Shown: in pieces, positions 13,818 to 18,360 of the stretch | How positions within the stretch are numbered: position 1 is the stretch's first letter | Layout: every line of letters starts with the position of its first letter | Notes under the pieces: model-generated | What the model saw: only the letters and a program-made list of their open reading frames with translations | Database searches by the model: none | What the model was told of the DNA's origin: nothing | Position numbers and translations under genes: made by a program | From: Patescibacteria group bacterium | GTDB taxonomy: Bacteria > Patescibacteriota > Minisyncoccia > Minisyncoccales > CG1-02-41-26 | DNA: 34,324 bases | Direction: 5' to 3' | NCBI GenBank assembly: GCA_023474835.1 | Contig: JAMCXQ010000028.1 | Span: forward strand, 1-34,324

Positions 13818-14339
13818 ATGAACCAATTTTTTAAAAAAGTTAAAAACAAAGTATTCATAATCACATTGTTTACAATAATAATGGGAGTGGCTTTTATTGT
13901 AGCAAATGTTTTAATTTTCGTTTTTTTATTTATTGGTAAAGAATACCAAACGGCAATAGAACTGATAAAATTTTTATGTTGGCCCGGTCTAATTTTTGTT
14001 ATTTTCGTGGTGGTTATTAATAGTGCTTATTTGAGAGAACTTTTTTCGTACCTTTTTCTTTCTATGGAGGAATTTAATTTTTTCTCTATCAAGGGAAAAA
14101 TAGAAAATGTCCGCGAGGTTATAGAAAGGAAAATTGAAGAAGGTATCCAAAAATTAGAAAAAAATAAACAAATAGAAACTTTAAAAAGAGGGGTTATCGA
14201 ACTTATAGAACAAAAGGGGGAATCCGCTCAAGAATCGGATAGGTTAAAAAAAATAGTGGATTCACAAGAAAAAGTTATAAACAAGCAAGAAGAATTAATA
14301 AAATTATTAAATGAAATTGTTAAAAATGGGAACAGGTAA
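13818..14339 (+). CDS. Small membrane protein, two predicted TM segments plus coiled coil, upstream of and overlapping the predicted endonuclease
   Basis: Hydrophobic stretches IITLFTIIMGVAFIVANVLIFVFLFI and FLCWPGLIFVIFVVVI, then a charged heptad-like C-terminus; overlaps the next ORF by 29 nt. Confidence 0.6.
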   Translation: MNQFFKKVKNKVFIITLFTIIMGVAFIVANVLIFVFLFIGKEYQTAIELIKFLCWPGLIFVIFVVVINSAYLRELFSYLFLSMEEFNFFSIKGKIENVREVIERKIEEGIQKLEKNKQIETLKRGVIELIEQKGESAQESDRLKKIVDSQEKVINKQEELIKLLNEIVKNGNR

Positions 14340-15042
14340 AAAAATAAATTCAATTATCAAGGCCTACGAGCACTTGACAAAAGGCATAGAAAAAACAGCT
14401 AAAACTGGCACTGACGGCAGGGCTTACGGCGGGATTATCCGGGCCGGCAAGGGCGAAATGGTTGAAAGTATAGCCGCAGAAATTGTGAAAATAGCCTGGG
14501 AAGAATTAAGGCAAAAGCCGGAACGATTGACAATAGACCGAAAGAAAATAAAACTGCCAATCAAAAAGAGCTATGTTGAGAAAATAAAAAGCCCGGGAAT
14601 AAGGCAATATATTTCAGAAAATATTAACAAGTATTATTTCCCGTTGGGTGTGGATTTGCATATTTCTATTGACGGGGAATTTGTGTTGGCAATGGAATGC
14701 AAGGCCTATGCTGAAAACGCAATGCTCAAAAGAATTTTAGTTGATTTTTCATTATTCCACGAAATTTATCCGAAAGCCGGCTTTATTTTGTTTCAGCTTG
14801 AGAGCCAGCTCGGCGGAGATTATTCAGGGTTAAAAAATATTACTTTCGGCAGTCCGTCAACGCACACTCTTTTGTCTTATTTTAATATTGACCTAAATAT
14901 TATCACCCTGTTGAAAGGTGAAAGAAAAGTGGACAAACCAATCCATAAAAAACAATACTATAAACCATTACAAAAAGAAGCTTTATTATTTGCAATAAAG
15001 CATATCAAAAGCATGCTACGCAAGCACGCAAAATCAAAATAA
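14311..15042 (+). CDS. Predicted type II restriction endonuclease (PD-(D/E)XK-like)
   Basis: GVDLHISIDGEFVLAMECKAYAE fits D-Xn-E-X-K; convergent with and overlapping a DNA methyltransferase. Alternative start ATG at 14326. Confidence 0.65.
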   Translation: MKLLKMGTGKKINSIIKAYEHLTKGIEKTAKTGTDGRAYGGIIRAGKGEMVESIAAEIVKIAWEELRQKPERLTIDRKKIKLPIKKSYVEKIKSPGIRQYISENINKYYFPLGVDLHISIDGEFVLAMECKAYAENAMLKRILVDFSLFHEIYPKAGFILFQLESQLGGDYSGLKNITFGSPSTHTLLSYFNIDLNIITLLKGERKVDKPIHKKQYYKPLQKEALLFAIKHIKSMLRKHAKSK

Positions 15043-16161
15043 AGTTTCTGACAGCCTGGTTTCGGCAGTTTTGCAATACTCGGGCGCTATATCAATGCCT
15101 AAATATCTGCGATTCAATTTTTTAGCGACAGAGGTGGTTGTTCCAACTCCGTTGAAAGGGTCAAGTACAAAGTCGTTTTTGTAACTGAAAAGCTTTAACA
15201 GACGGGTTACCAATTCCTCGGGAAACATTGCCGGATGTTCGTATTTTTTCATATTTCTTTCAGGAGCAATGGACCATTTGGCATAAACCCATTTTTTGAA
15301 CTCCTCGCCGGCTATGTCAATATTGACTGATTCGCCGGTTTTTTTATGGGTTTCTTTGCAAAAAACCTCGACAAATTCCCAAGAATATTTTAAGTAGGGC
15401 ATACTCGGGCTTTTCCAGCTGCCCCAAGCCGTATATTTGCAGTTATAATTATTTTTTTCCCAAATAATTTCCCCTTTCCATAAAAGACCTAAATTCAATA
15501 ACTGCTTGGATATTAAATGATGGGTTGGAATATAGTCAGAAAATAACGGCTGGATATTAACGCAAAACCTGCCACCCGGTTTCAAAACTCTTACGCATTC
15601 CCGCCATATTTCGTTTAATTGATAAAAATAATCAGCCCATTTTTTTGTATCGTTTTTATTGTCGTTTTTATAATCCAAACCGAAATTATATGGCGGGGAG
15701 GTAATTATGATATCAATGGAATTATCAGGCGCTTCACTCAAAACTTCTTTGCTGTCTCCACAAACAATCTTGTTCACAAATTTTTCAGGGTCTTGGGTAT
15801 CTGGTTTTATTGTCACAGAATAATTGAAATTTTTCGTGCCTCCGCGAAATCGTTCTTTTATCGTCCTGTTTTTTACCTTCCGTTCTTTTTCAATATTATC
15901 GTTATCATACTGATAAGATAAAGGGGGGTATACGGGAACGAAAGATAACGGCGCGTCTTGGATAATCGAAATGCCGCGCGCTTTATAGTTTTCTTTTGCC
16001 AAATAGCCCTTTTCGGCCAATGTTTTGATTTGCTGGTGCACGGTTGATTTGGCAGATAATCCAAAATGTTTTTTAATTTCTTCAACCGAAGGGGCGTAGC
16101 CGTTCTTTTCTATGAATTTTGTGATATAATTAAAATATAATTTTTGTTTTTTTGTGAGCAT
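15034..16161 (-). CDS. DNA methyltransferase (beta-class, TSPPY) with N-terminal LexA-type winged-helix domain
   Basis: N-term LTKKQKLYFNYITKFIEKNGYAPSVEEIKKHFGLSAKSTVHQQIKTLAEKGYLAKE is LexA-DBD-like; IIITSPPYNFGLDYKN (motif IV) precedes FVLDPFNGVGTTTSVAKKLNRRYLGIDI (motif I). Confidence 0.88.
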   Translation of the reverse strand: MLTKKQKLYFNYITKFIEKNGYAPSVEEIKKHFGLSAKSTVHQQIKTLAEKGYLAKENYKARGISIIQDAPLSFVPVYPPLSYQYDNDNIEKERKVKNRTIKERFRGGTKNFNYSVTIKPDTQDPEKFVNKIVCGDSKEVLSEAPDNSIDIIITSPPYNFGLDYKNDNKNDTKKWADYFYQLNEIWRECVRVLKPGGRFCVNIQPLFSDYIPTHHLISKQLLNLGLLWKGEIIWEKNNYNCKYTAWGSWKSPSMPYLKYSWEFVEVFCKETHKKTGESVNIDIAGEEFKKWVYAKWSIAPERNMKKYEHPAMFPEELVTRLLKLFSYKNDFVLDPFNGVGTTTSVAKKLNRRYLGIDIAPEYCKTAETRLSETLF

Positions 16162-16184
16162 ATCATCTGCTGGGTTATTACTTT

Positions 16185-16213
16185 ATTATACCGAACATTT
16201 TGCGAACATTCAA
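16185..16213 (-). promoter_or_regulatory. Methyltransferase promoter TTGAAT-N17-TATAAT with tandem CGAACATT sites in the spacer
   Basis: On the minus strand TTGAAT gttcgcaaaatgttcgg TATAAT; CGAACATT at 16192-16199 and 16203-16210 on the plus strand. Confidence 0.75.
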
Positions 16214-16238
16214 ACCCTAGATTGTGGATAACTTTTTT

Positions 16239-17247: not shown

Positions 17248-18360
17248 ATGCCTTTTAAGGGAGCTGAAAAATTAAATGCTGGCGAAAAGAAGGAATATCA
17301 CAGGGGCAAAACGTTTGAAGACGCTTTGTCAGAAATGCTTAATGTATTAGAAACAAAGCAACCCGAGATAATCAACCCTACCTGGGTTGAGCACAATGCC
17401 CCAGGCGCCTGTTATCACGTTTTGAGAAAAGGCAAAAATTCAGGCTTGGATAACAAACGCTGCTGGCAAATTCTGGTTGATTCGCTGCCCGATCAGTGGA
17501 AATCAAAATGGCGTCATCAAGAAAGAATGAATTTTGATTTTAACGGGGCCGTGAAAAGATTGGCCGTGCTTTTGAATGAACATCGGCCCCGGACTTTTAA
17601 CGGCAGGTGGATTGGTAATCACGACAAAGCACTATATGGTTATTTTATGCGCCATTGCCGCACCAAAGATAAAAAAGATATCAACTGGGACAATATTATT
17701 AATTCTTTGCCTGCAAAATGGAAAGACAAGTGGCGGGTAAGATTAAGGGATGAAACCAGAGAAAAAATGTCAGAGATAAAAAAGAAATACAGGTTTGAAA
17801 GCGCAATTGAAAGACTTATAGGGATTTTAGAGGAAAGCCAGCCGACTGTTGTTAATAGCGGTTTTATTATGAAGAAAGACCCGAGCCTCTATTCTTTTTT
17901 TGTGCGATTTATTAGGGACAAAAATGGAGGAGTTGATTGGGATAGAATTATTGTCAATATTCCGGAGAAATTTCGGGCCCGTTTTGAAAAACCAAAAACA
18001 TTCAACCGGGAAAAGAAAACGGTCCAAGAGCCGGAAATGTTTTGGCTGAAAGTTGTTTATGCGGTTTTGCTGCATTCCGGGAAACCTTCTTTGGATAAAA
18101 AAGTTTTGGTCAAAAGGCTTCCTTTCATTCTAAACAAAAATGCCATCCCAAATCTTATCCGGGCCAGCTTCAGGCTGCTAAACAGGGCGTTTGAAGCAGA
18201 AAACGAAAACGAGTGTGTTTTTCCAAAAGAGGTTTGGGAACTTTGCCGGGCCTTGAAACAAAAATGGCCCGGCAAAAGCTTGCCGGCAATAGTCAACTCT
18301 ATCCCAAATAACGACATAGGCCGTGATTTTCTGGAATATGGCGAAAAGGAAAAAACATAA
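17248..18360 (+). CDS. Protein of unknown function with at least three ~70-85-aa internal repeats
   Basis: Repeats beginning at aa 23, 98 and 183 share F..A(I/V).RL..LL....P...N..WI....LY.FF.R..R.K...DWD.II.S(L/I)P.KWK.KWR. Confidence 0.7.
   Translation: MPFKGAEKLNAGEKKEYHRGKTFEDALSEMLNVLETKQPEIINPTWVEHNAPGACYHVLRKGKNSGLDNKRCWQILVDSLPDQWKSKWRHQERMNFDFNGAVKRLAVLLNEHRPRTFNGRWIGNHDKALYGYFMRHCRTKDKKDINWDNIINSLPAKWKDKWRVRLRDETREKMSEIKKKYRFESAIERLIGILEESQPTVVNSGFIMKKDPSLYSFFVRFIRDKNGGVDWDRIIVNIPEKFRARFEKPKTFNREKKTVQEPEMFWLKVVYAVLLHSGKPSLDKKVLVKRLPFILNKNAIPNLIRASFRLLNRAFEAENENECVFPKEVWELCRALKQKWPGKSLPAIVNSIPNNDIGRDFLEYGEKEKT

Follow-up and report, generated by a model that had tools for sequence, protein, structure and literature searches.

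A LexA winged helix fused to a type II DNA methyltransferase in Patescibacteria, with a putative operator over its own promoter

Introduction

The DNA methyltransferases M.EcoRII, M.SsoII and M.Ecl18kI are C5-cytosine enzymes and carry HTH domains of kinds other than the LexA winged helix. They represent an established type of enzyme in which an HTH at the N-terminus of the methyltransferase represses the gene that encodes it (PMC3874152). In a restriction-modification (R-M) system methylation has to keep its lead over cleavage, a balance that can fail while DNA is being repaired. A different arrangement is found in Esp1396I, which we take to be a convergent type II system with the controller (C) protein encoded ahead of the restriction gene (R). 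In type I systems, restriction alleviation is triggered by DNA damage (PMC12707154).

Here, the fusion of a LexA winged helix to a beta-class amino-methyltransferase is described. The gene was found in a stretch of 34,324 nucleotides, referred to as the window, from a Patescibacteria genome of 647 kb (a draft of 35 contigs). As in M.EcoRII, M.SsoII and M.Ecl18kI, an HTH is located at the N-terminus of the methyltransferase, the restriction gene is separate, and an operator, in this case predicted from sequence, lies over the methyltransferase's own promoter. Unlike in that group, the HTH is a LexA winged helix, the enzyme is a beta-class amino-methyltransferase and the box is a direct repeat of LexA type; moreover, relatives of the window protein carry the self-cleaving protease of LexA and include N6/N4, D12 and C5 enzymes. 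The window fusion would work like the M.EcoRII/M.SsoII group and is not a homologous member of it. With the LexA SOS repressor (PF01726 and PF00717) the window gene shares the DNA-binding domain and the direct repeat GTTC-N7-GTTC, which is the alpha-proteobacterial LexA box (PMC8565304). The cleavage site, Ser and Lys of the SOS repressor are kept by the relatives of the window protein; unlike that repressor, the window protein itself lacks both protease and cleavage site, forms part of a fusion with an enzyme, and has its box at its own promoter only among the sites inspected. What is new is that the head derives from LexA, that the proposed operators are direct repeats of LexA type, that most members possess the full SOS protease and that several methyltransferase classes are involved. 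No published description of LexA-methyltransferase fusions was found, and LexA is not mentioned in a long 2025 review of restriction-modification biology; an earlier mention is possible, for example in the work of Sanchez-Osuna et al. 2017 on SOS in Patescibacteria.

Domain organization of the fusion protein

The fusion gene and the parts of its product are as follows.

15034-16161, minus strand: LexA wHTH-DNA methyltransferase fusion gene, 375 aa, a single uninterrupted ORF (Pfam, NCBIfam, PDB search, AlphaFold)
15973-16158, minus strand: LexA_DNA_bind, residues 2-63 (PF01726, AlphaFold helices, operator covariation)
15778-15972, minus strand: linker, residues 64-128, where relatives have the S24 protease (alignment; pLDDT below 50 at residues 59-94)
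15049-15777, minus strand: beta-class amino-methyltransferase domain, residues 129-371 (PF01555, PADLOC, PDB, Foldseek)

A preliminary description of the window had given the ORF with its exact coordinates and strand, and had read it as a LexA-type wHTH followed by a complete beta-class methyltransferase, with no LexA protease domain; the searches agree with it on each of these points. Residues 2-63 matched the Pfam model LexA_DNA_bind with 57.2 bits (cut-off 23.7; E 1.5e-15), so that the N-terminal winged helix of LexA repressors is present. The NCBIfam lexA model covered residues 2-70 alone, and the PDB sequences matched by this part were the LexA repressors 3k2z, 1lea and 1jhf. In the AlphaFold model, helices were predicted at residues 4-20, 26-33 and 38-50 with pLDDT of about 80-86. 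The recognition helix of the head would correspond to residues 38-50 or thereabouts, with Q43 aligned to E45 of E. coli LexA; the E. coli sequence and its E45 numbering are taken here as assumed.

The C-terminal part matched N6_N4_Mtase (PF01555) over residues 149-367 with 143 bits (E 1.7e-41) and the PADLOC model MTase_II (E 2e-68), and among PDB sequences it matched N4/N6 methyltransferases (2zie, E 1.3e-27). The motif TSPPY (154-158) precedes DPFNGVGTT (334-342), which is the beta-class order of xxPPY ahead of an FxGxG-type SAM-binding motif. The C5 methyltransferase family PF00145 gave no match in the fusion by Pfam. The best PDB folds for the whole model (pLDDT 74) were 2zie/2zig and a cytosine-N4 methyltransferase, with a Foldseek E of 3.8e-21 against 2zie. 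As TSPPY is frequent among N4-cytosine enzymes, m4C may be offered as a guess for the product. Residues 59-94, which join the head to the enzyme, are disordered in the model with pLDDT below 50, and neither an S24 protease domain nor its cleavage site, Ser and Lys was found in the fusion by Pfam or by alignment with the relatives.

Restriction partner and gene arrangement

Two genes on the opposite strand lie on the 3′ side of the fusion gene.

14311-15042, plus strand: type II restriction endonuclease gene, tail-to-tail with the fusion gene and overlapping it by 9 bp (PADLOC PDLC03499 REase_II, E 4.7e-87)
13818-14339, plus strand: 173-aa protein with hydrophobic stretches/N-terminus and a coiled coil; its ORF runs into the beginning of the restriction gene (ORF call)

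A methyltransferase gene thus adjoins an endonuclease gene, as in type II systems, and because the neighbour matches a restriction enzyme model the window locus is, judged by sequence, a complete type II R-M system. In the preliminary description the fusion and its lack of a protease domain had been recognised correctly; the restriction gene, the existence of complete LexA fusions (see below) and the standing of the window copy as their protease-less counterpart had been missed. The same restriction family adjoins 43 of 80 related loci. Within the window subfamily, all fused members with mapped neighbours (the window, L003 and L006) are convergent.

The tail-to-tail arrangement of M and R is like that of Esp1396I, and nine related loci also have a C-like gene before R. 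Unlike in that layout, M is proposed to be under its own LexA head, and the window has the membrane/coiled-coil ORF and no C gene: no small HTH controller gene was found ahead of the restriction gene at the window locus. The 173-aa ORF occupies the place of the C-protein gene of the relatives; it had no family match in Pfam, NCBIfam or PADLOC, and whether it is part of the R-M system is uncertain. Elsewhere in the window, a 370-aa ORF (17248-18360, plus strand) without a Pfam match has a threefold divergent repeat, with units about 70-85 residues long that end in DQWKSKWR, AKWKDKWR and EKFRARF.

A direct repeat of period 11 upstream of the fusion genes

Upstream of the window gene, the following elements were identified.

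16192-16210, minus strand: proposed operator, direct repeat AATGTTCG caa AATGTTCG, period 11 (repeat search)
16185-16213, minus strand: predicted sigma-70-type promoter TTGAAT-17-TATAAT, overlapped by the operator (10/12 matches, a consensus match only)

The box reads AATGTTCGcaaAATGTTCG and forms a perfect 8-bp repeat, in which GTTC-N7-GTTC (16193-16207) lies within the spacer between -35 and -10. By its sequence, therefore, the window gene has a putative LexA-type operator over its promoter. The fragment 16180-16220, to which the preliminary description had pointed, contains this operator inside the promoter, and a LexA-family domain acting as a built-in controller, as suggested there, now appears likely.

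The 110 nt upstream of each of 18 fusion genes were searched for operators, with dinucleotide shuffles as control. A direct repeat with at least 6/7 matches at period 11 was present in all 18 promoters, compared with 1.9 (sd 1.2) in shuffles, and was perfect (7/7) in ten of them, compared with 0.18; among the periods from 8 to 21, none other than 11 stood out in these promoters. The inverted repeat of the classical palindromic LexA box was rejected as a candidate, being found 7 times against 6.5 in shuffles of the same 18 promoters. All seven fusions found later also had the period-11 repeat; these amount to about 5 independent lineages, because L150 stands near L003/L006 and L153 nearly duplicates L154. 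The other repeats mostly share a TTC core with different flanks (TGTTCGG in L136, TTTCGGT in L141, TTTCTAT in L133, TTCGATA in L135). At the restriction gene promoters, no convincing period-11 box of this kind was seen.

The half-site was found to vary with the recognition helix. Where Q or E occupies the position of E. coli LexA E45, the half-site is TTCGG (G fifth) in 8/9 cases; where F, H or Y does, it is TTC[GT]A in 17/17 (Fisher p 5.8e-6, the half-site classes for L129, L140 and the window being assigned by eye). Independent pairs agree in 3/3 cases, which are too few (p 0.25). The covariation is suggestive of a LexA head that reads the period-11 box.

A DnaA-box-like TGTGGATAAC is located beside the window operator (16223-16232, plus strand); it occurs 8 times in the 647-kb genome, and its reversed control 0 times. 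Of 25 fusion promoters, 15 have the DnaA-box consensus TGTGGATAA, on either strand, a short distance upstream of their LexA-type repeat (the window, L003, L006, L127, L128, L129, L133, L135, L136, L150, L152, L153, L154, L157 and L159), as does the promoter of the host lexA (L142). A link of LexA-type genes to DnaA is possible, as is another promoter element.

Complete LexA-methyltransferase fusions

At least 24 relatives were found that join a complete LexA, with wHTH, cleavage loop and Ser/Lys S24 protease, to a methyltransferase. The genomes searched were confined to Patescibacteria, and nearly all fusions are from this group: L003, L006 and at least 21 more come from its genomes, and L179 from a viral-contig collection. 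In annotated phages and plasmids, no fusion covering 80% of the query was found. The fusions nearest to that of the window are L003 (Zambryskibacteria) and L006 (Jorgensenbacteria), each of 500 aa with the architecture LexA_DNA_bind, Peptidase_S24, N6_N4_Mtase. All three parts were detected by Pfam in 17/17 of the first fusions, whose methyltransferases are of the N6_N4 (14), D12 (2; L137 and L140) and C5 (1; L141) classes. The cleavage site (residue and Gly), Ser (SM) and Lys (LK) are kept in 24/24 full fusions, the cleavage region being G-x-I-x-x-G-x-P-I-E, mostly with A-G. In the AlphaFold model of L003, the S24 part was predicted with low confidence (pLDDT about 35-55).

Restriction genes adjoin most fusions, for example BglII-like in L128 and BsaWI-like in L138. 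At the nine loci with an HTH C-protein-like gene, this gene is directly ahead of R and encodes 68-73 aa (107 aa as called in L003); two of the nine were checked against Pfam.

In the LexA-domain tree the fusions cluster, with 3 label changes compared with 14 in shuffles. The standalone LexA of the window's host groups among the fusions, its nearest neighbour being the LexA part of L159 (100/99 support), and free and fused LexA may for this reason have been interconverted within the Patescibacteria group. Among the matches listed for the Patescibacteria genomes searched, the window copy is the sole protease-less fusion and no other was found. L004, L005, L007, L008, L009 and L082 had no frameshifted remnant of LexA ahead of the methyltransferase. 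The window copy and L003/L006 do not come out as sisters in the methyltransferase tree, so descent from a complete LexA that lost its protease is not established; on the LexA-domain tree its head is too short for firm placement. The window copy either lost the protease or never had it.

Proposed mechanism

We consider it probable, with good confidence, that the window gene encodes the modification enzyme of a type II R-M system and that the LexA head lets the methyltransferase repress the gene from which it is made. The sequences themselves show that the two domains are fused, which gene is the partner, to what class the operator belongs, where in the promoter it lies and that the relatives conserve the protease; operator binding, repression and release on damage are what we infer from them. 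The winged helix would bind two head-to-tail GTTCG half-sites between -35 and -10 of its own promoter, which are 11 bp apart and therefore on the same face of the DNA. Since S24 is the dimerisation domain of LexA, the window head is assumed to dimerise through the methyltransferase part. Once enough methyltransferase has accumulated, its gene would be turned off, and the ratio of methyltransferase to restriction enzyme would be set. The window copy would have this feedback loop alone; as a fusion without the protease, it is not expected to respond to damage.

In the full-length relatives, damage would activate RecA, LexA would cleave itself, the operator would be freed and methyltransferase synthesis would increase, so that the extra enzyme would be timed to the appearance of unmethylated repaired DNA. 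Such derepression is likely in these relatives because the protease is conserved. RecA is encoded in the genome of the window. The presence of a whole self-cleaving LexA in the relatives thus suggests an R-M system wired to a sensor of DNA damage. In a wider proposal, the LexA-methyltransferase family would couple type II R-M to SOS, with heads on at least three methyltransferase classes, many specificities and private operators, and the window protein would be a derivative that had lost its damage input; the derepressed methyltransferase would shield fresh, unmethylated repaired DNA from its own restriction enzyme. We regard the chances of this wider proposal as evenly balanced.

Alternative explanations

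Gene order raises the question whether the head mainly governs the restriction gene, for example by transcriptional interference from the convergent M promoter, such that R would increase when M is repressed. In the gene maps, 15 of the 18 fusion loci first studied are tail-to-tail (the exceptions being L127, L140 and L130), whereas, of the 41 relatives of the window methyltransferase that lack a LexA head and adjoin the same restriction family, 34 have M followed by R in tandem and 7 are convergent. Ecl18kI provides a precedent, although with another gene layout (PMC3874152). However, the R promoters are without the box and many relatives have a separate C-protein gene ahead of R, which makes this rather unlikely as the main function; control of the restriction gene could act on top of autorepression of the methyltransferase. 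It is still less probable that the head is a relic that regulates nothing after the protease was lost from a full LexA-methyltransferase. The window copy is indeed the sole one without S24 among the matches listed, and no close relative shows the deletion, but the head retains its 57-bit match to PF01726 and a fold predicted with good confidence, and its perfect 8-bp repeat lies exactly in the promoter spacer.

Targeting of the methyltransferase to host SOS promoters, which would give the damage response an epigenetic layer, seems very improbable; the preliminary description had suggested that the head could place the methyltransferase on SOS-like operators. The domain is that of LexA, and the host has both a standalone LexA (197 aa, L142:3448-4041, contig C34) and, some 6 kb from it on that contig, RecA. 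Against this, the host lexA promoter has a different half-site in its box TTCTA-N6-TTCTA, of which one other copy occurs in the genome, inside a gene, and the predicted recognition residue is Q in the window fusion and H in the host LexA. GTTC-N7-GTTC is not enriched, with 10 copies in the 647-kb genome against 14 for a reversed-pattern control. Six of these sites were placed on genes (the four on C3, C4, C9 and C28 were left out of the placement): the window's alone is in a promoter and the five others are in coding sequence. Because the box is not enriched, lies outside promoters at the other sites inspected and differs from that of the host lexA, the window fusion appears to regulate itself and not a regulon. 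That a lexA fragment was joined to a methyltransferase gene by faulty assembly or gene calling, a doubt invited by a 35-contig draft and also voiced earlier, is scarcely credible: one continuous frame spans both domains, the gene has its own operator, and 24 independent fusions are found in other genomes and contigs.

The damage-coupled reading, should it hold for the complete fusions, would go further than a variant of autorepression. A built-in SOS repressor with its protease would be a one-protein answer to the repair problem for type II systems. LexA heads that occur in nature together with their co-evolved operators would form a series from which LexA-DNA specificity could be read directly, and the controller would be a modular one that recurs in Patescibacteria, in which few defence systems have been characterised.

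Other genes at the fusion loci

Large serine recombinase genes are present within about 3 kb of the systems L129, L131, L132 and L135, identified in L131 by Pfam Resolvase/Recombinase and in L129, L132 and L135 by sequence likeness, which suggests mobility of LexA-methyltransferase systems. A 305-aa putative restriction enzyme is encoded on two separate contigs with the same LexA-methyltransferase type (L136:683-1600 and L179:2211-3128); it had no Pfam match in either and, for the L136 copy, no PADLOC match. A second methyltransferase gene is present in the loci L130 and L140, and the endonuclease of L140 matches a type II nicking endonuclease model.
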